Under the pieces are notes generated by a model. That model was not told the DNA's origin, searched no databases, and worked only from the letters and a program-made list of their open reading frames with translations. From positions 1 to 35,237 of the IMG/VR virus record IMGVR_UViG_3300006990_000085: DNA of 35,237 bases. One strand, given 5' to 3'. Positions 3,587-23,424 of the stretch are shown here, one piece after another (the stretch's first letter is position 1; each line of letters opens with the position of its first letter). Both the position numbers and the translations under genes were made by a program. The DNA comes from a virus.

Positions 3587-4015
3587 TTATGTCCTAGTTC
3601 CAGATTGCCTAGGCGCTCTAGTTAGACCTTGCTGAGCTATACCATCACATGATTTTCCAGCCATGCCACCTTTGTTATAGCCTTTAACCTTGCCGCCCAC
3701 CATCATGCCGTTCATTTTATTTTTTTCAAAACGCTTTTCTTTGTTGATCCGCAAACGCTCTTGACGAGCATCTCTACCTTCAGCGCCGCCCATACGTTCT
3801 TTAGGGGCAATCCGATAGATTTCGTCATCTAAGTTACGTAATACTCTTTTATCTCGCTTCATACCCGGCATACCACCCTCCTTAAAGGTTCTTCCTTTAT
3901 CTGCTTTAGCAAACTCTTTACCTACACTTTGTGGAACCCCAGCTTTCTTAGCAAACTTAGGGTTATTAGCTACCGCTGCCATAAACTTGGCTTGCTTTTT
4001 TGTCTTACTCGGCAT
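3587..4015 (-). CDS. Basic conserved phage protein (KKQAKFMAAVANNP family)
   Basis: 142 residues, highly basic. The N-terminus MPSKTKKQAKFMAAVANNPK, followed by FAKKAGVPQSVGKEF, is a conserved block seen in small proteins of many phages; its function is unknown. The rest is rich in Arg, Lys, Gly and Met, with glycine-rich spacers (GGKVKGYNKGGMAGKSCDG). Its ATG overlaps the stop codon of the pqqA-like gene (TAATG at 4013-4017), so translation of the two should be coupled. A DNA-associated virion or morphogenesis protein is plausible by charge and position. Confidence 0.7.
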   Translation of the reverse strand: MPSKTKKQAKFMAAVANNPKFAKKAGVPQSVGKEFAKADKGRTFKEGGMPGMKRDKRVLRNLDDEIYRIAPKERMGGAEGRDARQERLRINKEKRFEKNKMNGMMVGGKVKGYNKGGMAGKSCDGIAQQGLTRAPRQSGTRT

Positions 4016-4086
4016 TAGCGGTTTTTAAAGTACATAGTAATTTCAAAACCCAAGCGAACATTTTCGTATGTTGGTTTAGTCCACAT
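4015..4086 (-). CDS. pqqA: PqqA-like precursor peptide of pyrroloquinoline quinone
   Basis: A 23-codon frame, ATG at 4086 and TAA at 4015, with a clear Shine-Dalgarno (AGGAGATTACT) directly upstream. The peptide starts MWTKP and contains RLGFEITMYF, ending in NR. This is the layout of bacterial PqqA, also about 23 residues. In that family Glu15 and Tyr19 are joined by the radical-SAM enzyme PqqE (with PqqD) and excised to form PQQ; both residues and the ExxxY spacing are present. No pqqB, C, D or E is in the window, so the peptide would depend on host enzymes. Its stop overlaps the start of the next gene. The match is dense enough for a firm call; activity is inferred. Confidence 0.85.
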   Translation of the reverse strand: MWTKPTYENVRLGFEITMYFKNR

Positions 4087-4126
4087 AGTAATCTCCTGTC
4101 ATTTAACTTTATCAGCTCAATAAGCG

Positions 4127-4423
4127 CTAACACTTCCACCGTTTTCTTGCTTGGCGCAGCCTAGAATTAGGGTCTTTAGCTGCTTTTGGAAATTTTTTCA
4201 TCTGACCAGCGGAACGTGCACAGAAAGACTTACGCCGCTTTGCGTCCTTGCTGCCCTTCTTCACTTCACCCGTAACGGCTGTCTTAAGTTTAGAGCCGGG
4301 GTTGTCCCTACGGTATTTAGCCACACCCTTCTTAGTCATACCTGCACCAGACTTAGTTGGACGCTTCTGACCACCTTTAATGGTGTGGCCTTTCATAGTC
4401 CCCTTTTTCTTAGGCGCTGGCAT
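4127..4423 (-). CDS. Small basic conserved protein with RKSFCARS motif
   Basis: 98 residues, about a third Lys/Arg. The conserved core runs from KKGVAKYRRDNPGSKLKTAV to RKSFCARSAGQMKKFPKAA, ending RKRWKC. This arrangement is shared by small proteins of many aquatic phages and some large eukaryotic viruses, usually annotated as a domain of unknown function. The ATG at 4423 lies inside the end of the upstream gene (14-bp overlap), indicating coupling. No enzyme motif. DNA binding inside the capsid is possible by charge. Confidence 0.75.
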   Translation of the reverse strand: MPAPKKKGTMKGHTIKGGQKRPTKSGAGMTKKGVAKYRRDNPGSKLKTAVTGEVKKGSKDAKRRKSFCARSAGQMKKFPKAAKDPNSRLRQARKRWKC

Positions 4424-5632: not shown

Positions 5633-6544
5633 TTATGTAGCACCCGGTGAACCGTAAACGCCCAGTGGGTCAGATACGCCGAAGCTGTATCGCTCACGAG
5701 CCTTATAGCGGCTGTTCCCTGTGTCGAAGTCCGCATCCATAGATGTAGTCATCGGTGTACGGATGAAGTGCTTCAATCCGTTAGGAACGTCAGTCATCAA
5801 GAACCACGCATTACCGTCAGTGAGGTAGTTATTAACTGTATAACCCTCTGGCACTGTACCGTTGTTGCGGATTGCGTTGATGTCGTTGTCAGCAGTGCCG
5901 ACTCTTAGCTCAGTATCCATCAAACGTGTAGCAACGAATTGCAACGCTGGTGGGATAACAAGCTTACGAGGCTTGGCTGCAATCAAAAGACCACGCTCAT
6001 CAGTCCATGCTGCTATTGAAATAACCGCTGCTTCCAAAGAAGTCTCGTTTAAGTCAACGCCAGTCGCTGGAGTGTTTGCGTTAGTTCCACCAGAAACTAG
6101 TGGATGAGCCGTTGAGAACAAAGTCTGGCCGTCACCATAAGTGGGTCCGCCAGCAAAACCAGTGTTGAGAATAGTCGCACCTTTAACTTGCTTGGTGTAA
6201 GCCATTGCTCTAGCTAGTGCCTTTGTATAACGCGCTGAAAGCGAATCGTACAGGTTGTCCTCAATAGCCTCTTCGGTTAGTGAGAAACCCATAGCAATCG
6301 TCTCATTGACGTATCGGGCTGTGTAAGTCTCTTGTGCGTTATCATATGAAATGGCAGCACCTTCAGTTTTAACTGGGGCAGCACCAAAACCTGATAACTT
6401 CACTTCTTCTTCAAAGGAACGGTCAGAAGTCTCTGTTTCAAAGATTTCTTTAGTTTCCTCACCATATCTTGCGTACTCAAGGCCAAACAGGGCATTCAAA
6501 CCCGGTAGTAGTTCCTTGAGGAGTTGCGCTCGTGAAATAGCCAT
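5633..6544 (-). CDS. Major capsid protein (Mu gpT-like, HK97 fold)
   Basis: 303 residues. The N-terminal helix MAISRAQLLKELLPGLNALF and the internal DGQTLFSTAHPLVSGGT segment are typical of Mu gpT-like major head subunits. A conserved region near residues 190-210 (AAKPRKLVIPPALQFVATRL) and the C-terminal RYKARERYSFGVSDP also fit. This protein would form the hexamers and pentamers of the head. It sits after the scaffold and an accessory protein and just before a strong terminator, as expected for the most abundant virion protein. The length is normal for the family. Confidence 0.85.
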   Translation of the reverse strand: MAISRAQLLKELLPGLNALFGLEYARYGEETKEIFETETSDRSFEEEVKLSGFGAAPVKTEGAAISYDNAQETYTARYVNETIAMGFSLTEEAIEDNLYDSLSARYTKALARAMAYTKQVKGATILNTGFAGGPTYGDGQTLFSTAHPLVSGGTNANTPATGVDLNETSLEAAVISIAAWTDERGLLIAAKPRKLVIPPALQFVATRLMDTELRVGTADNDINAIRNNGTVPEGYTVNNYLTDGNAWFLMTDVPNGLKHFIRTPMTTSMDADFDTGNSRYKARERYSFGVSDPLGVYGSPGAT

Positions 6545-8695: not shown

Positions 8696-9106
8696 TCACG
8701 CACGAGTGATTGCTCTCGGATTGGCGACAACCGCTTCAATAGAGTCGTCATTCATCAGACGATACTCTTGGTTGCCTAGTTTGAACCGTGTTCCGGTGTT
8801 AGCTCGGAACATTACATAGTCCCCAACCTTACACCACGGTCCGTTTACGAATCGTTCTTTGTCGCTGTAAGCCTCGTCGCCCATATCTACTACAGCTCCA
8901 ATAGTAGAAAGGATGTACTCTTCACGCTTTGTTTGGTCTGCTTTAATAAGACCGCTATCTCCAAAGGTTTCCTCCACGTTAGGGAGTGCTATGAGTATTC
9001 TGTAACCCACAGGTTTAGGGATGAACGCATCCATATCTTCGTCGGATATTTTCATCTCATCTATCTTTTCTTGTCGCTTCTTCTCAAGAGCCGTCATTTC
9101 AGTCAT
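8696..9106 (-). CDS. GroES-like co-chaperonin
   Basis: Cpn10-type protein: PKPVGYRILIALPNVEETFG, a mobile-loop-like SGLIKADQTKREEY, then GAVVDMGDEAYSDKERF, GPWCKVGDYVMFRANTG and YRLMNDDSIEAVV follow the order of GroES strands. Co-chaperonins cap GroEL and help fold phage capsid proteins, as T4 gp31 does. Extending to an ATG at 9139 would overlap the upstream gene by 41 bp, so I prefer ATG at 9106 (136 residues; 9097 is also possible). Its place between portal and scaffold genes suits a capsid-folding role. The host GroEL would be the partner. Confidence 0.75.
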   Translation of the reverse strand: MTEMTALEKKRQEKIDEMKISDEDMDAFIPKPVGYRILIALPNVEETFGDSGLIKADQTKREEYILSTIGAVVDMGDEAYSDKERFVNGPWCKVGDYVMFRANTGTRFKLGNQEYRLMNDDSIEAVVANPRAITRA

Positions 9107-9296
9107 CGGTTTCTTCCATATAGTTACGCGAGAGGTCATTTATTTCACGTAATGCGGTGTCCAGACCCCGAAGCACACCACACACTTCTTTGTAGTCGGC
9201 GTAGTCTTTAGCTGCACCGGATCGTACAAATTCTTCGCTAGACCGTTTATGGTCTGTAAGTTTATCTGTTAGCACGTCAAAGACGGTTTTAGCCAT
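9099..9296 (-). CDS. Small conserved phage protein, function unknown
   Basis: 65 residues, highly charged and helical (KTVFDVLTDKLTDHKRSSEE, then KEVCGVLRGLDTALREINDL). Proteins of this size and look occur next to portal genes in many marine podovirus genomes. Its stop overlaps the start of the GroES-like gene (ATGACTGA), so the two are translated together. No catalytic or metal motif apart from a single Cys. It may be a small morphogenesis factor; this is not shown by sequence. Confidence 0.7.
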   Translation of the reverse strand: MAKTVFDVLTDKLTDHKRSSEEFVRSGAAKDYADYKEVCGVLRGLDTALREINDLSRNYMEETDD

Positions 9297-9471: not shown

Positions 9472-11961
9472 TTATCTCTCCTCTCTGTCATCACGTAAGG
9501 CTTCATCTCTATCTCGTTCTGCTTCGGCTCTCGTTCGTTTTTCTTGTCCTGCACTTTTAGCCATGTCAATAATAACCTTGGCTTCAGCTACATCATTCTT
9601 AGCTTCAGACTGTTCATTCTGCGAGGCTATACGGCTAGCTTCCAGCACCGCTGTGGTCTGCGCCTTCTGCTTATCCAGCTCAATTCGCTCTTGATCTATC
9701 GCTAAGTCGCCCGCATCTTTAGCTGCTTTGCGTTGTAGCTCACCTTGCTTAAGCTGTAGCTCTGCTTGCTTCATCTGGAACACAGGGTCTTGTGCCTGTT
9801 GCTGTGCCTGTTGCTCCGCCGCTTGCTGTTGTTTCTGTTGAGTTAACTGTATTGCAGCCTGAGACATAGTTTGTGCTAATAAATTAGCCGCTTCTTCAGG
9901 TAGTTCTTCGCCCGGTGGTGGTAGTGCTACACCCAACTTCTGCTCCATCTGCTGTCTATATAAGAAGGCCATGTGCTCGGCAATGTGCGCTCTAAGGGCA
10001 GCAACAATCTGTTGACCCATAGGGTTTTGTCCAATAAGTGCTGCAATCTGTGGATCAGCAAGGAAGGCTTCGTGTGCAGTAATGTGCGCCTGATGGTCTT
10101 GAAATATAAATGCCTTGATAGGTTTACCTACTAACGCGTCCATATTCTCACTGACTGGATCTATTGGATTAATATCCTCTTCAGTCGGTACTAACTTGTC
10201 TGCGTTCTTGATCCCTAACACTTCGATCATCTGACGGTGCAACTGGGGTAGATCGTAGATTTGTGGGGAAGCCTGTGCCATCTGCAACACGGTTTGGTAT
10301 TGCACAACTCTTTGTGCCATCGTGCTGCTATTGGGGTCGCTGACAGGAATTACTTCCACCGTGGCGTAGTCCGCTTGGCGGGCGCGGGGAGTACCACGAT
10401 CAGGCTCATAACCGTACTCTAATGGCGCATATTCAGCCATAATCGCTCTAAGAAGCTTAAATTCCTGCTTCATCGCGTAATGGACGCGAGATTGTACCGC
10501 TGCCATTGGCTTCAATGTACGCTCAAGTAGAGCTAATGTTGTTCCAACTGGCGCATTTGCGCTCATATCGGAGATGTTCATGTCAGAGATCGCTCCAAGG
10601 CGGCGACCTTCCTCTGTGATCTTGTCTAATAGCGCAAGTAACGTCTGACTTGGCTCTTTATAGGGTAATGGTAGGATATTATCCCGTATTGACCCGCTCG
10701 GTACGTCCACATCCCTGAATTCACCCGGCCCGATGGGGGTATCACCCGTTGTTACGCGCATTCCACGCGATTTTAGGCCACCCGGTAGGTTAGAAAGTGT
10801 ACCAGCGTCAACTAATTGACGGATTAATGACGTTCCAGCTCTTGCATACCCACCAATAATGTGAATTAAACCAAGACCATAGAAGCCAAAGCCCGGAACA
10901 TAGACATAATGAACAAAATGTTGACGCTTGAGCGTCAAAGAATCGTCAGGGTTCCAGTTTCGACGTACCGCAAGTACTGTTCCTGTGCCTTTTTCGATGG
11001 TAACCACGTAAGGTTTGGCTACTTGTAGGTCATCTTCGTCGTCAACAATCTCTCCGTCTGCCTCATCCAACACTAAATCGGCATGAATCTCATATACAGC
11101 GTACCGATCATCCGATGTTACCGACATTCCAGCCTGTTCAGCCTTAGCTTCTTCAATATCTGTAGAGAATGCGACCGGATCGCCTAATGTTACGTTTCTG
11201 TAAAACCCTGCTGCTTGCAGTTTGACCATCTCGTTCTTGGTTTTACGCATCACATGAGTGACACGCTCGGCAGATTCTAGGTTAGACGCACCGTAAGGCA
11301 CGATCATATCTTCTGCGGGAATGTAAATAGCGATCTGACGACCAATGTTAGGATCGTAGTAGACCTTCTTGAATGCTGATCCTGCGAGTCCCAAACTGTA
11401 AAGCATACGTTCGTGTTCAGGGCGATACTCGACCATCACATCTGTAAGCTCGTAATTCATGTCTGTTTTGACGCGTAAGGCCGCATCTTCCTTATCGCGA
11501 GTAATTTCTCCCAAAATCTGAGTCTTCACTGGACCGGCTGCTGGGAACGTCTCGCTCATTGCTTCCGCTTGGAATCGAATCGCTGCTTCTGCTAATACTG
11601 TACTATATACGCCACAGGCGTTTTCCCACGGCTCAGTTCTGTCTTCGTAACTAAACCCTAGGACTTCAAGACCCTTTACAAAAGTCTCAGCCCAATCACG
11701 ACGTGAACCTATGTCATCATCTACCGCAGCAACTAAATCAGCCGACAACTCGGTTAGCTGACCGTCATCCATGTACTCAGCAAGGTTGGCATCGAACGGT
11801 GCGTTAGCAATATCTGTGTCCATCGCGTCGGGGACAATCGTAATCTCCACTGTGCCGTCGTCTAAGGTCACCATCTCTGGGTTGACGATTTCAATCTCCA
11901 ACTCGCTTGTTTCTTCTTCCATGCCCTCTGGCATGGCATACAATCCTTTTTCAATAGCCAT
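9472..11961 (-). CDS. Portal protein, P22-like
   Basis: 829 residues. An acidic N-terminus (GMEEETSELEIEIV) precedes the portal body. It contains RMLYSLGLAGSAFKKVYYDP and IYIPAEDMIVPYGASNLESA, typical of large P22-like portals, the dodecameric ring through which DNA enters and leaves the head. Residues about 700-750 are a Gln-rich helical stretch (QLTQQKQQQAAEQQAQQQAQ), like the barrel of P22 portal. The C-terminal 80 residues are strongly charged. It starts at the last base of the terminase gene (11961), as in the usual terminase-portal order. Confidence 0.88.
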   Translation of the reverse strand: MAIEKGLYAMPEGMEEETSELEIEIVNPEMVTLDDGTVEITIVPDAMDTDIANAPFDANLAEYMDDGQLTELSADLVAAVDDDIGSRRDWAETFVKGLEVLGFSYEDRTEPWENACGVYSTVLAEAAIRFQAEAMSETFPAAGPVKTQILGEITRDKEDAALRVKTDMNYELTDVMVEYRPEHERMLYSLGLAGSAFKKVYYDPNIGRQIAIYIPAEDMIVPYGASNLESAERVTHVMRKTKNEMVKLQAAGFYRNVTLGDPVAFSTDIEEAKAEQAGMSVTSDDRYAVYEIHADLVLDEADGEIVDDEDDLQVAKPYVVTIEKGTGTVLAVRRNWNPDDSLTLKRQHFVHYVYVPGFGFYGLGLIHIIGGYARAGTSLIRQLVDAGTLSNLPGGLKSRGMRVTTGDTPIGPGEFRDVDVPSGSIRDNILPLPYKEPSQTLLALLDKITEEGRRLGAISDMNISDMSANAPVGTTLALLERTLKPMAAVQSRVHYAMKQEFKLLRAIMAEYAPLEYGYEPDRGTPRARQADYATVEVIPVSDPNSSTMAQRVVQYQTVLQMAQASPQIYDLPQLHRQMIEVLGIKNADKLVPTEEDINPIDPVSENMDALVGKPIKAFIFQDHQAHITAHEAFLADPQIAALIGQNPMGQQIVAALRAHIAEHMAFLYRQQMEQKLGVALPPPGEELPEEAANLLAQTMSQAAIQLTQQKQQQAAEQQAQQQAQDPVFQMKQAELQLKQGELQRKAAKDAGDLAIDQERIELDKQKAQTTAVLEASRIASQNEQSEAKNDVAEAKVIIDMAKSAGQEKRTRAEAERDRDEALRDDREER

Positions 11962-13607
11962 TAGTAGTATCCGCCTCTACGTTGCTTGAAGTATTGCTCT
12001 TCTTCTAGTTCATCCGATGGAAGTGTGATGAACCCACCCTGCCTAAAACGCATCAGGGCCATTATCGTCGTATCCACAAGGTCATCGTTAGACATAAAAG
12101 GAAAGCCCGCCACTTCTTCTACTAACTCTTCCGCCCAACGTGTTTGTGGAACCCACACTAATCCTGAGCGTACTATATCAGCAACTGAATTTAAACGCGC
12201 TGTTTTATCACCTGAACCTCTGTGCGGTGTATATTCTTGCACCATCAACCCACCACGACGCATCTCCTGATACAGAGGTGTACCACTACTCTTCTTCTCC
12301 ACAATAAACGCGTCGGGGTTCCACTCTTCATACTCTTCCCACGCAAGTTCTTTTAACTCTGGAAACTCTAGCCTACGTTTGATTGAGTTTAGTAATATAA
12401 TACAGTGGCAATTCTCTTCTTCATGGAAGAACACTCCCCACGTCGTAAGGGCTGTATAGTCCGCTCGGTTGTTCTTTTCTGCCGCTGCGTCAAGCGTCAT
12501 TATGATGTATTCACATTGAGGGGGTTCTTCTTTCTCCCACGTCATCCACCACTCCCGTTTTACTAGGGCTGCTTCTTCTGCGGTGGGGTGCTGCTGATAC
12601 TGCGCGTTCCATTGAAACACCGGCATAGAAGCCTTTGTTCTATACAACGCATCAAGGTTAAAGAACTCAGGCCACAACGGTTTCTCTATTATCTTTTCTG
12701 GGGCTACCTCATCCTTCGTTTCTAGTATCGCGGGGAACTCTACAACTTCATACTTGTCCGCTAATTCATTCTGTGACATGTCCCGCACCACACGTCCTGT
12801 CAAATCATCTAAGTGCCAACGTGTTTGTATAATAGCCACGCGGCCACCGGGCATCAGACGTGTACGTGCCCCGAACGTAAACCACTCGTAAGCTTTGTCG
12901 AAAACATCCAAGTTACCGTTAATGATGTCTTGCTCGTTATGAGGGTCATCAACCAGCAACAGGTGAGCACCACGACCGGCTAACGCTGATCCAACACCAC
13001 ACGCAAAATACTCACCTCCAACGCTGGTGTTCCAACGTCCTGCCGACTTCGAGTCTTGTGCAAGCTGCACATTAGGGAATATAGCCTGATACTCAGGTGT
13101 AGCAATGAGATTACGTACCTTCCGTCCGAAGTCCACCGCAAGGTCTGTGGTGTGCGAGACCATCAAAACTTTCTTGTCAGGGTTACGTCCTAAGAACCAC
13201 GCTGGAAAATAGATAGAGACTAACTGAGACTTACCATGACGCGGAGGCATGTTGACACATATCCGGTCCTTACCCGTTGCTAGTACCTCTTCACCTCGCT
13301 CGTTGTACTCTTTACCGCGCTCGATCTCCATCAGCAGGTCTGCCAATATCCTGTGGTGTTTGCCTACTTTATAGTCACTCTGCATCTGTTTACAGAACTC
13401 TATTAGATCTTTATAGGCAGCCTCTGCACGTTGCTTGACTTCCAACTCTTCTACGATCTTAAGGATCTCCTCCTGTTCTTCTGAGGAGTAGGAGTTTAAG
13501 TTTTGCAATAGGAGGTCGATGTCTTCAGGAGAGAAGATGATTGAAGAGGCCGTAGGGACTACTCCAAGGTTGGTGTTATAAGCTGCTGGGTTATGGAGTT
13601 GATTCAT
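11961..13607 (-). CDS. terL: Terminase large subunit
   Basis: 548 residues. ATPase domain: Walker A MPPRHGKSQLVS at 120-131, Walker B LLLVDDPH at 216-223, and a coupling region near GGRVAIIQTRWHLDDLTGRV. Nuclease domain: IIMTLDAAAEKNNRADYTAL with the first catalytic Asp near residue 370. The enzyme drives DNA into the procapsid and cuts the concatemer. It overlaps the small-subunit gene by 17 bp and the portal gene by one base. Length and motif order are normal. The packaging type (headful or cos) cannot be read from this sequence. Confidence 0.95.
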   Translation of the reverse strand: MNQLHNPAAYNTNLGVVPTASSIIFSPEDIDLLLQNLNSYSSEEQEEILKIVEELEVKQRAEAAYKDLIEFCKQMQSDYKVGKHHRILADLLMEIERGKEYNERGEEVLATGKDRICVNMPPRHGKSQLVSIYFPAWFLGRNPDKKVLMVSHTTDLAVDFGRKVRNLIATPEYQAIFPNVQLAQDSKSAGRWNTSVGGEYFACGVGSALAGRGAHLLLVDDPHNEQDIINGNLDVFDKAYEWFTFGARTRLMPGGRVAIIQTRWHLDDLTGRVVRDMSQNELADKYEVVEFPAILETKDEVAPEKIIEKPLWPEFFNLDALYRTKASMPVFQWNAQYQQHPTAEEAALVKREWWMTWEKEEPPQCEYIIMTLDAAAEKNNRADYTALTTWGVFFHEEENCHCIILLNSIKRRLEFPELKELAWEEYEEWNPDAFIVEKKSSGTPLYQEMRRGGLMVQEYTPHRGSGDKTARLNSVADIVRSGLVWVPQTRWAEELVEEVAGFPFMSNDDLVDTTIMALMRFRQGGFITLPSDELEEEQYFKQRRGGYY

Positions 13608-17776: not shown

Positions 17777-18877
17777 GTGACTACAACAAACACAGCACAA
17801 GCAATGTATGCACTCAGTTTTGACCAGACAGCGAACCTTATCAATGCGGTAGGGTCGCGTAACACCGTACTTGCACAAGGTAACATGGGTATTGGTAAAA
17901 CTTCTTTGTTGAAGCTATTGACCAAGATGAACCCTGACCATGTACCAATTTACCTAGACGGCACGACTATTATTGATTCGGCTGATCTATTCATGGTCAA
18001 GTATTCCGAAGATGGTGACACGTTCAAGACAGTACCCCTCGAAGACCTTGGTCTACATCTACCCGATCAACCTGTCATTCTAATGATTGATGAACTGGGT
18101 AAGATGAACAGGTCTGCACAGCTAGCGTGTCTACGTCTGATGTTGGAGCGAACGCACGGTAAGCTACGTATGCACTCCGACAGTATTGTATTCGCTACGA
18201 CCAACAAAGGCACAGAAGCAGTGGGTGACTTACTCCCCGCCCATGCACGTAATCGACTGACCATTGTAGAGATGCGTAAGCCTGACAACATGGAGTGGAT
18301 CGAGTGGGGTATCAACAACGACATCGACGCTACGCTACTAGGTTTCTGTAAAGAGAAGCCAGAGATATTTCATAGCTTCGAGGGGTATGAGAACCCTGAC
18401 GAGAACGAGTACATATTCCACCCACGAAGTGCACGTACAGCCTTCGTTACACCGCGCTCACTTGAGAAGGCAAGTGACATACTCAAACAACGTGCGGTAC
18501 TCGATGACACCTCACTCAGTGCGGCTCTCGTCGGTACGATTGGTGACCGAGCGGCATTGGACTTGGCGGCATTCATCGCACTAGCTGACAAGTTACCTAC
18601 ACTTGACCAGATCAAGGGTGACCCGATGACTGCACCTGTACCCGACAGTCCAGCGGCTATATGTATGGTGGTGTACCGAGCACTGGCAACCATCGAACGT
18701 GAGTGGGTGGACCCTTGGTTGACTTACATGAACAGGTTGCCCAAGGAGGCTCAAGGTTTGTTCGTCAATGGGGTACGTAGACCCAAGTACAGCCGACGTG
18801 ATTATGTAGTGCAGTCTGGTACTAAGTATCAGGACTGGTGCACAGCTAACAACTACATGTTCAGCATTGATAAGTAG
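17777..18877 (+). CDS. MoxR-type AAA+ ATPase
   Basis: 366 residues. Walker A GNMGIGKTSL at 35-44, Walker B ILMIDELGKM at 101-110, sensor-1 region FATTNKGTEAVGDLL near 139-153 and a putative arginine finger in HARNR at 156-160. MoxR-family ATPases act with VWA proteins as chaperones that assemble or activate complexes. The next gene is a VWA protein 10 bp away, the classic pairing. GTG start with GGAG about 10 bp before it. It has its own consensus promoter. The target is unknown; the gene at 16763 is a candidate. Confidence 0.88.
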   Translation: MTTTNTAQAMYALSFDQTANLINAVGSRNTVLAQGNMGIGKTSLLKLLTKMNPDHVPIYLDGTTIIDSADLFMVKYSEDGDTFKTVPLEDLGLHLPDQPVILMIDELGKMNRSAQLACLRLMLERTHGKLRMHSDSIVFATTNKGTEAVGDLLPAHARNRLTIVEMRKPDNMEWIEWGINNDIDATLLGFCKEKPEIFHSFEGYENPDENEYIFHPRSARTAFVTPRSLEKASDILKQRAVLDDTSLSAALVGTIGDRAALDLAAFIALADKLPTLDQIKGDPMTAPVPDSPAAICMVVYRALATIEREWVDPWLTYMNRLPKEAQGLFVNGVRRPKYSRRDYVVQSGTKYQDWCTANNYMFSIDK

Positions 18878-18887
18878 GGGGTGAGAT

Positions 18888-20099
18888 ATGTTAGCAATCA
18901 ACACACAACTATCAGCCGAGCAACGGCTCACTAAAAACATCACAACCATTATGGGTAACCCCAAGTACGTTGCACTAGCAGGTGTACTGATGATCGGTGA
19001 CAAGGGTATCAAGGACGACTGCCCGACTGCCTACACTAATGGACGTGATGACCACTATGGACGTGCGTTTGTTGATGGGTTAAGTGACTCAGAGTTTCGA
19101 TTCTTGATACTCCATGAGACTTACCACAAGCTGTTCAAGCACCTGACCACATGGGAGCACTTGTACAAAGACGATCGCAAACTAGCTAACGAAGCGTGTG
19201 ACTATGTAATCAACTTGATGATTACGGATGAGAACCGTGATGGGTTTGCAACCATGCCCAAAGATGAACGGGGTAATACTATCGGACTACTTGACGAGCG
19301 GTTCCGTGGTATGGACACAGCACAGGTGTACAAGTTACTCAAACAAAATAAGGAGGATAGCCCAGAGCAACAACAGGGTGAAGGCCAAGGTGAAGGTGCA
19401 GGGTTAGATGAACACGATTGGGAAGGTGCCCAAGAGATGACTGCCGAAGAGCAACGTGATCTAACACAAGAGATCGACCAAGCAGTCCGACAAGGTGCAC
19501 TACTTGCCGGTAAGGTAGGCAGTGGGGGCAACCGAGCCATCGACCAACTACTACGATCCGAGGTGGACTGGCGTGAAGCACTGCGTGAGTTCGTTACAGA
19601 AACGTGTCGGGGTAATGATGACAGCACATGGCGTAGACCAAGCCGACGGCATATGGCGATGAACATCTTACGACCCAGTGGTATCACTGAACGAGTGGGT
19701 GAACTAGTCATTGCTATCGACACGTCAGGTAGTATCGGACAACAAGAGCTAACCCGATGCCTCAGTGAGATCAAGGGTGTATGCGATACGGTCAAGCCCG
19801 AATCTGTTCGGGTACTGTATTGGGATACCAAGGTGTGTGGTGACGAGCAGTATGGTGGGACAGGTACACCGCTCGAACAACTTACACAAACAACTAAGCC
19901 CAAGGGTGGTGGTGGCACTGACGTGCAGTGTGTACCTGACTACATACGTGACAAGAACATCAATGCACAAGCAGTGATCGTGTTGACTGATGGATACCTA
20001 CATGATTGGGGTACGTGGAGTATGCCCCTGCTGTGGACGATCCTAGACAACAAACAAGTAACACCCATCAACGGTAAGACAATTCACGTTAACCTTTAA
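18888..20099 (+). CDS. VWA-domain protein with N-terminal HExxH metallopeptidase-like domain
   Basis: 403 residues. The N-terminal domain has HETYHKLFKH with HExxH at 76-80, and NEACDYVIN at 101-109, which may give a third zinc ligand. This is the DUF2201-type layout. Residues about 165-185 are a Gln/Gly/Glu linker. The C-terminal VWA domain has a MIDAS start AIDTSGS near 277 and LTDGY near 365. VWA proteins of this type work with MoxR ATPases, here encoded just upstream. Whether it cuts peptides is not certain; some family members lack activity, but this one keeps the motif. Confidence 0.85.
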   Translation: MLAINTQLSAEQRLTKNITTIMGNPKYVALAGVLMIGDKGIKDDCPTAYTNGRDDHYGRAFVDGLSDSEFRFLILHETYHKLFKHLTTWEHLYKDDRKLANEACDYVINLMITDENRDGFATMPKDERGNTIGLLDERFRGMDTAQVYKLLKQNKEDSPEQQQGEGQGEGAGLDEHDWEGAQEMTAEEQRDLTQEIDQAVRQGALLAGKVGSGGNRAIDQLLRSEVDWREALREFVTETCRGNDDSTWRRPSRRHMAMNILRPSGITERVGELVIAIDTSGSIGQQELTRCLSEIKGVCDTVKPESVRVLYWDTKVCGDEQYGGTGTPLEQLTQTTKPKGGGGTDVQCVPDYIRDKNINAQAVIVLTDGYLHDWGTWSMPLLWTILDNKQVTPINGKTIHVNL

Positions 20100-22066: not shown

Positions 22067-22565
22067 GTATGAAAATATTGGGGGCGTAGTAACCGACGCA
22101 CATTACTGGGATTGTGAATGCGATACCGATTACATCCATCATATGAGCGATGTTGAGCCTTGCGAAAAATGCGGTGCTGATCCGGACGAACAGCCTAACT
22201 CAAGACCCGATGAAATAGCTAAAGCTTTTAATGAGTTTGAGAGAGCGGAACACGATGAAATAGCGTCAGAGGTTACAAAACTTCGTCGTTTTAACGTATC
22301 GGTTTGTCTCGATAGGTTTGTCGATGTCGTAGCTGATAGCGAGGTAGAGGCTAAAAGAATAGCTCAATCGAGAATTGACGAACTTGTGAGAGACTTGTTA
22401 GCAACCCGCGTATCCGCTTGGGATATGGCAGTTGGTGACATGTTTTACGAACCGTTAGGGTCAGTCGAAGAAACTGAAGCTGATGACGAAAACGAGGCGT
22501 GGCATTGGGCTTTGCGATCCAAAGATTACCCAAAGAAAGATGACAAGGAGGACGATGATGAGTAA
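22056..22565 (+). CDS. Zinc-binding acidic protein, function unknown
   Basis: 169 residues. A Cys cluster near the N-terminus (DCEC at 19-22 and CEKC at 36-39) suggests a zinc ribbon. The middle resembles the helical part of the upstream 61-residue protein: RFNVSVCLDRFVDVVADSEV then EAKRIAQSRIDE, so the two may be related. The end is strongly acidic (KKDDKEDDDE). AACACAACAGGAGGACGATG precedes the second ATG. It overlaps the IS110-like gene by 8 bp through the same type of coupled ribosome-binding site. Confidence 0.65.
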   Translation: MMTRYENIGGVVTDAHYWDCECDTDYIHHMSDVEPCEKCGADPDEQPNSRPDEIAKAFNEFERAEHDEIASEVTKLRRFNVSVCLDRFVDVVADSEVEAKRIAQSRIDELVRDLLATRVSAWDMAVGDMFYEPLGSVEETEADDENEAWHWALRSKDYPKKDDKEDDDE

Positions 22566-23424
22566 CTTAAAAACAATAGTAAGGGGCGCGTACGATATAC
22601 AGAAGAATAGAATCCAGACAGGTAATCGTTTGGTAGGAAACTTCAAAGCTAAACTTGGGCAAGCACCGAGTGAGAAGGAAGATACAATCGACAAGGATGG
22701 GCAACAGATACTTGTTAACCTACGTAGGGCACACAGACTGCTTACCGAAGGAGTGGCTAGCTTTCCAAGGCAAGCTACGTTCAAGGGTGATGAGGTCATC
22801 AGTGACTACACCGAGTTGTGTCTGGTGGATAACTACCTAGAACTGGAGACGCAAGAAAAGAATCACTTCAGACGTTTAGGTAATATCCTCAAAGGTTACC
22901 CTATCTACTCTCAATTTCTTGAAAATGTAACAGGCGTTGGTCCTGCTATGGCAGGGGTAATACTTAGTGAAATAGATATTAGTAGAGCTGAGTATCCATC
23001 TAGCTTACACAAGTATGCAGGGTTAGATGTTGCAAGTGATGGGCAGGGGCGTAGCCGTAAGAAGGAACACTTAGAGGAGAGTGAATACGTAGACAAAGAC
23101 GGTAACCCTCAAACCAAGAAAGGTATTACTTTTAACCCATTCCTTAAGACCAAGTTAGTAGGTGTATTAGGTAGTAGTTTCATCAAACAATCGCCAGACA
23201 AGTGTAAGTATCGTAAGGTGTATGATGATTACAAGCACCGACTAGAGCATATGGATGCCCATAAAGAGAAGTCCAAGGGACACCGACATAACATGGCAGT
23301 GCGGTATATGATTAAGATTTTCTTAATTGATCTGTACAACGAGTGGCGTAGCATCGAGGGGCTACCCGTTGCTCCAACATACAGCGAAGCTAAACTAGGT
23401 AAAGTACATAAGGTAGCCGCCTAG
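22558..23424 (+). CDS. IS110-like transposase C-domain protein lacking the DEDD domain
   Basis: 288 residues from ATG at 22558 (22555 possible), after AAGGAGGACG. Residues 123-139 (NVTGVGPAMAGVILSEI) are a helix-hairpin-helix and 150-160 (LHKYAGLDVAS) match the conserved core of Transposase_20, the C-terminal domain of IS110/IS116 transposases. Residues 240-265 end as in that domain (KGHRHNMAVRYMIKIFLIDL). The usual N-terminal RuvC-like DEDD domain is absent: residues 1-110 are basic helices without Asp-rich motifs. No terminal repeats of an IS were found. The conserved array at 23428 starts 3 nt after its stop, so protein and array may form one functional unit; that is a hypothesis. Confidence 0.8.
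   Translation: MSNLKTIVRGAYDIQKNRIQTGNRLVGNFKAKLGQAPSEKEDTIDKDGQQILVNLRRAHRLLTEGVASFPRQATFKGDEVISDYTELCLVDNYLELETQEKNHFRRLGNILKGYPIYSQFLENVTGVGPAMAGVILSEIDISRAEYPSSLHKYAGLDVASDGQGRSRKKEHLEESEYVDKDGNPQTKKGITFNPFLKTKLVGVLGSSFIKQSPDKCKYRKVYDDYKHRLEHMDAHKEKSKGHRHNMAVRYMIKIFLIDLYNEWRSIEGLPVAPTYSEAKLGKVHKVAA

Follow-up and report, generated by a model that had tools for sequence, protein, structure and literature searches.

We find that an IMG/VR virus record of 35,237 bases (hereafter the window) carries an orphan pqqA gene of 23 codons, whose product is, judged by its sequence, a genuine PqqA that exceeds the cut-offs of both curated families for this peptide. In the reading we favor, to which we give a probability of roughly 0.78, the gene would be functional and would act as a substrate-only auxiliary metabolic gene (AMG), feeding the PqqBCDE enzymes of the host during infection. 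Phages probably supply a consumable precursor of PQQ in this way, keeping the energy enzymes of the host working in infected cells.

The peptide is encoded on the minus strand, reading from position 4086 to 4015; the plus-strand translation of the same interval is unrelated to PqqA. It scores 39.4 bits against Pfam PqqA PF08042 (cut-off 21.1, E 5e-10) and 45.0 bits against the NCBIfam PqqA equivalog TIGR02107 (cut-off 20, E 6e-12), and it is the sole local PqqA profile match among 965 six-frame stop-to-stop frames of at least 20 amino acids, the runner-up being at chance level. Together with the AGGAG site ahead of the ATG, these scores bear out the first-pass annotation, which had called a PqqA-like peptide with a strong Shine-Dalgarno sequence. 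The MWxKP start and the Glu15 and Tyr19 residues that it named are both present in the minus-strand translation, the latter spaced four residues apart and corresponding to the pair that PqqE cross-links. It was also correct that other pqq genes are missing: pqqB–E have no match anywhere in the window, and the adjacency needed for a complete pqqABCDE operon is absent. Searches with the window peptide found no matching family in PHROGs and no sequence match in the PDB.

Table 1 Features of the window around the orphan pqqA gene and in the structural-gene region
Feature	Coordinates	Strand	Basis or remark
Orphan pqqA, 23 codons plus stop, MWTKPTYENVRLGFEITMYFKNR	4015..4086	minus	Translation; Pfam and NCBIfam matches
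Shine-Dalgarno AGGAG	4097-4093	minus	6-nt spacer to pqqA ATG
112-bp cassette (ribosome-binding region plus pqqA)	4018..4129	minus	Exactly absent from contig L360, by alignment
TAATG, pqqA stop overlapping the next gene's start by one base	4013..4017	minus	Sequence; L360 alignment
Gene upstream of cassette, DUF6321 domain	4127..4423	minus	PF19846; syntenic in relatives
Gene downstream of cassette, N-terminus related to a phage virion-protein family	3587..4015	minus	phrog_16759, phrog_22033; syntenic in relatives
Major capsid protein	5633..6544	minus	Pfam and PHROGs matches
Portal protein	9472..11961	minus	PHROGs match
Terminase large subunit	11961..13607	minus	Pfam and PHROGs matches

Terminase, portal, capsid and adaptor genes share the strand of pqqA in the window, and in both the window and the cultured isolates described below a host-type metabolic gene thus resides inside a bona fide phage genome, as expected of an AMG. 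The earlier placement of pqqA in a 'late operon' is supported as far as the same-strand structural genes go, the late timing itself being deduced from gene content. The nearest isolates by terminase large subunit include the pelagiphages HTVC027P/HTVC023P (43–45%), and no informative relative emerged when phage records were searched by megablast with three related contigs and a portion of the window. The one-base TAATG-type overlap, which makes translational coupling of pqqA with the next gene possible, recurs in 27 of 106 contigs with an RLGFE-type pqqA; a promoter and terminator scan of the window found nothing better than in shuffled sequence. Several other window genes deserve mention in their own right. 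A Cpn10/GroES-like protein (PF00166, 38 bits; 8696-9139, minus strand) adjoins the portal gene and is kept in relatives, and two separate minus-strand proteins (1136-1768 and 2282-2986) match the SU10 adaptor family (PF24175). On the plus strand, an AAA ATPase and a DUF2201 metallopeptidase/VWA protein are adjacent (17777-18877 and 18888-20099), resembling a MoxR–VWA pair, and a protein of the early region (22483-23424) has a weak Transposase_20 (IS110-type) match.

Comparison with close relatives shows that the gene is gained or lost. Contig L360 matches the window at 96.4% identity across 4.6 kb upstream of the cassette and at about 92% downstream of it, the two flanks being joined at an identical TAATG. 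The absence of the cassette from a 96%-identical phage indicates that pqqA comes and goes, by either loss in L360 or recombinational gain in the window. Moreover, a PqqA profile that recovers all positive controls detected pqqA in 0 of the best 80 of at least 600 stretches related to the window by their capsid gene, so pqqA is dispensable for this type of phage, an outcome that the first-pass annotation had not anticipated. Dozens of related contigs do carry pqqA at the same locus, downstream of the capsid gene; their capsids are 77–85% identical, and many neighboring genes are only 35–70% identical. The peptide itself differs among phages, with Methylophilaceae-like, alphaproteobacterial-like and the window's own types. 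At the same locus within the window lineage, the Methylophilaceae-type peptide occurs at a GC content of 0.37–0.44 and the RLGFE..YF type at 0.41–0.50. Host PqqA recurs unchanged in many phage copies; for example, the commonest Methylophilaceae-type phage peptide (23 amino acids) is also the second most frequent one among the bacterial sequences we fetched, and the alpha-type phage peptides include what we take to be near-copies of the Methylobacterium form. These patterns suggest that peptide type follows the host. For the host of the RLGFEITMYF type, the best match was 74% in a thin sampling of ~370 Gammaproteobacteria, ~400 Pseudomonadota and three orders.

The cultured phages with pqqA all have Methylophilales hosts. 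Searching 50,697 phage records by tblastn with two gamma-type queries, the window peptide and a Pseudomonas-type PqqA, returned an identical set of 12 records: nine Methylophilales phages (Venkman, P19250A, MEP301, MEP401, MEP402 and four Melnitz isolates), one uncultured podovirus from Manatee Spring and two contigs labeled 'Acinetobacter phage MD-2021a'. We rejected the last two as pqqA phages; the one we read (CAKLQF020000010.1, L006) is bacterial DNA, with a full pqqABCDE set beside fur and ppk. Two alpha-type queries added no further phage to this set beyond a chance match at E=10, and because four single-sequence queries fall short of an exhaustive profile search, the lack of hits in other phages is no more than indicative. 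Likewise, 9/9 counts the Methylophilales records recovered by tblastn, which we compared with the isolates listed in PMC13037479 and with P19250A; any Methylophilales phage lacking pqqA would escape such a search. All ten phage PqqA variants tested exceed the TIGR02107 cut-off. Glu15 and Tyr19, whose loss in relatives would have spoken against a PqqA function, are retained in the isolates, which were found without forcing these residues. In Venkman and MEP301, pqqA lies among replication and recombination genes in the orientation opposite to its neighbors. Just past the Venkman gene (L002, 3077-3094, minus strand) is a perfect GC hairpin, GGGGGCTAATCGCCCCC, followed by a T run and scoring above shuffles; this strong terminator-like element may act as a boundary between pqqA and the genes that face it.

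The gene has plausibly been overlooked in phages because it is so short. In the isolates examined, pqqA either falls between two called genes or lies beneath a small antisense hypothetical coding sequence, and is labeled as such in none. Prodigal by default sets a minimum gene length of 90 bp, and the 72-bp pqqA falls below it. GeneMark and Prodigal were the gene callers in one of the papers on these phages (PMC10580990), and phage pqqA is mentioned neither there nor in the others (PMC9004378, PMC8163748 and PMC8024684).

Environmental records extend this distribution well beyond the isolates. We scanned IMG/VR with degenerate DNA patterns that force some residues, and the counts are thus lower bounds; the P19250A and MEP301 peptides, for example, have T/S in place of K and would be missed. 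The pattern W-x-K-P...G..E.T..Y matched at least 120 stretches, the window-type pattern 111 and the alphaproteobacterial-type pattern 40, giving at least 260 distinct contigs with pqqA (11 are common to the first two patterns). Each inspected match is an uninterrupted reading frame with a start codon close by, and a Shine-Dalgarno-like motif precedes pqqA at 223 of 224 phage loci. The first-pass annotation had supposed that the gene could be widespread and unnoticed, and so it proves, with nine Methylophilales phage records and at least 260 IMG/VR contigs carrying it and a pqqA annotation in no isolate. The 20 proteins sampled from pqqA contigs include several phage hallmarks (terminase, major head, tail fiber, primase) and others that belong to no known family. 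No pqqB–E was found by tblastn in the fetched flanks of viral pqqA loci, and 26 whole records contain no true pqqE and no PQQ alcohol dehydrogenase, the pqqE profile giving weak, generic radical-SAM matches far under its cut-off. With three shared genes as the threshold, a gene-sharing network of the first 228 records breaks up into 36 components; Venkman, P19250A and MEP301 fall together in one of the larger communities, the window belongs to another and Melnitz to a third. The position of pqqA relative to structural genes varies among these phage groups. The gene also occurs on very large viral-classed contigs of 266 kb (L450), 356 kb (L029), 340 kb (L250) and 217 kb (L335).

Phage pqqA is maintained by selection, as expected of an AMG, with a dN/dS of 0.08–0.21 depending on the codons counted. 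In pairwise comparisons that ignore kinship, dN/dS for the Methylophilaceae type is 0.087 when all codons are counted and 0.105 when those fixed by the search pattern are set aside; for the window type, calculated in the same manner, it is 0.082 over all codons and 0.21 over codons left free by the stricter pattern. Constraint on the window type outside the forced core is thus moderate. In the Methylophilaceae type, Arg11 is invariant through five different codons and Phe14 is also invariant, with the proviso that invariance in pattern-collected sets is partly by construction, several residues being forced. The poor synonymous/nonsynonymous constraint that could have undermined the original proposal is not what we see; selection is purifying.

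Why would a phage carry this gene alone? PqqE is a radical-SAM enzyme that works with the chaperone PqqD, and cross-linked PqqA is trimmed and oxidized to PQQ. One PqqA is spent per PQQ, whereas PqqB–E are catalytic and reusable. Because the peptide is consumed and the enzymes are not, a phage need bring only the 72-bp substrate gene. We propose that, when a phage shuts down host transcription, the peptide supply would fail first while PqqB–E persist. Phage-encoded PqqA would then keep PQQ, and dehydrogenases for methanol or other alcohols that depend on it, in supply, and the dehydrogenases thus sustained would power phage production. This model supposes that host PqqE and PqqD accept the phage peptide, that its type matches the host's, that pqqA would be expressed together with late genes and that the benefit to the phage would be PQQ supply. 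The cross-link formed by PqqE with PqqD joins the Glu and Tyr of PqqA, and the remaining pathway leads to PQQ (Barr 2016, as summarized in PMC7678222). Genomes of Methylophilaceae contain 3-12 pqqA copies and, in nearly all cases, a single pqqBCDE set (PMC4109929), a ratio expected if peptide supply is limiting. As a separate observation, Methylophilales bacterium LSUCC0135 (G006) has twelve pqqA copies over the Pfam cut-off at many scattered loci in a 2.1 Mb genome.

Other explanations account less well for these observations. A chance open reading frame might be suspected from its 23 codons, but E-values this low in two curated families among 965 frames, and positional conservation across dozens of related contigs, leave that idea a negligible probability. 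That pqqA is a neutral passenger acquired from hosts rich in pqqA copies would fit both the up to 12 copies in such hosts and the near-identical phage that lacks the cassette. We nevertheless consider it improbable, as dN/dS is low, synonymous change is near saturation, the reading frame is intact in all inspected matches and 9/9 retrieved Methylophilales phage records, which span several unrelated phage types, have the gene. The first-pass annotation had also raised re-use as a small virion or signaling peptide, to which one can add a precursor of a different RiPP. The window gene does adjoin structural genes, but the replication-region copies of Venkman and MEP301, which oppose their neighbors, do not fit a virion or signaling role, and sequence constraint in the family is that of a PqqE substrate. 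A different RiPP would call for a dedicated modifying enzyme, and the 26 whole records contain none, weak generic radical-SAM matches aside. With a position that varies by phage group and a PqqA-like constraint, re-use gained nothing from the data, and we regard it as very doubtful.

Two further possibilities concern the effect of the peptide on the host cell. As a decoy or brake, it might bind PqqD or PqqE and lower or redirect PQQ synthesis, halting host respiration or another PQQ-dependent process; competition with host PqqA for the modifying enzymes is conceivable for any peptide that binds them. Retention of Glu15, Tyr19 and the core, and the many copies identical to host PqqA, would instead predict ordinary substrates, making a decoy distinctly unlikely. 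Alternatively, raised PQQ might exclude superinfecting rivals by occupying PqqU, the outer-membrane PQQ importer that serves as receptor for some phages, and PQQ does close PqqU and block a PqqU-dependent phage of E. coli (PMC12124388). There is no sign of PqqU use by phages of the hosts considered here, and we judge exclusion to be quite improbable. A PqqA substrate supplied to host enzymes is, in our view, the best account of the gene.

A broader generalization has, in our estimation, about an even chance of being correct, namely that a host-matched, substrate-only pqqA is a near-universal hallmark of phages of PQQ-dependent methylotrophs and is common in phages of other PQQ-making bacteria, with unrelated phage groups bringing the precursor alone and its type following the host. 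There are several implications. Marine and freshwater methylotrophs oxidize methanol via PQQ enzymes, and if methylophages routinely carry the PQQ precursor, then viral infection lends direct support to a central step in one-carbon cycling. If the hallmark reading is true, pqqA would be a marker from which the hosts of uncultured phages could be predicted. More generally, inventories of phage metabolic genes can systematically miss genes of fewer than 90 bases. Finally, cultured phage–host pairs (Venkman or Melnitz with H5P1, MEP301 with an OM43 strain, MEP401/402 with FZCC0133 and P19250A with IMCC19250) make the role of pqqA immediately testable.

The window peptide resembles PqqA of the PF08042/TIGR02107 families in length, W-x-K-P start and Glu15/Tyr19 core. 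Unlike the usual pqqA, its gene is phage-borne and stands alone, without pqqBCDE. A parallel exists in cyanophage psbA, which encodes a fast-consumed host component whose supply would fail once host transcription stops. The psbA product, however, is an enzyme subunit that is turned over, whereas PqqA is a substrate consumed stoichiometrically. The idea of a phage supplying PqqA is not wholly new. For the Lake Baikal methylotroph phages VP_139/VP_266, phage pqqA was proposed in 2020 to support methanol oxidation, and there a single T4-like genome carries it alongside radical-SAM genes and a phage methanol dehydrogenase (PMC7678222). By contrast, we describe pqqA as a solitary gene, present in cultured methylophages as well as in several unrelated phage groups. 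A 2026 study of reservoir sediments lists viral pqqA, pqqE and pqqD among phosphorus-cycle AMGs, as phosphate-solubilizing genes; the available portion of that report shares with ours the virus-carried pqqA and does not analyze orphan pqqA or isolates (PMC13188868). As far as the open literature searched extends, what is new is an orphan pqqA in all retrieved cultured methylophages, its occurrence in several unrelated phage groups and as several host-like types, and a clean presence/absence cassette.
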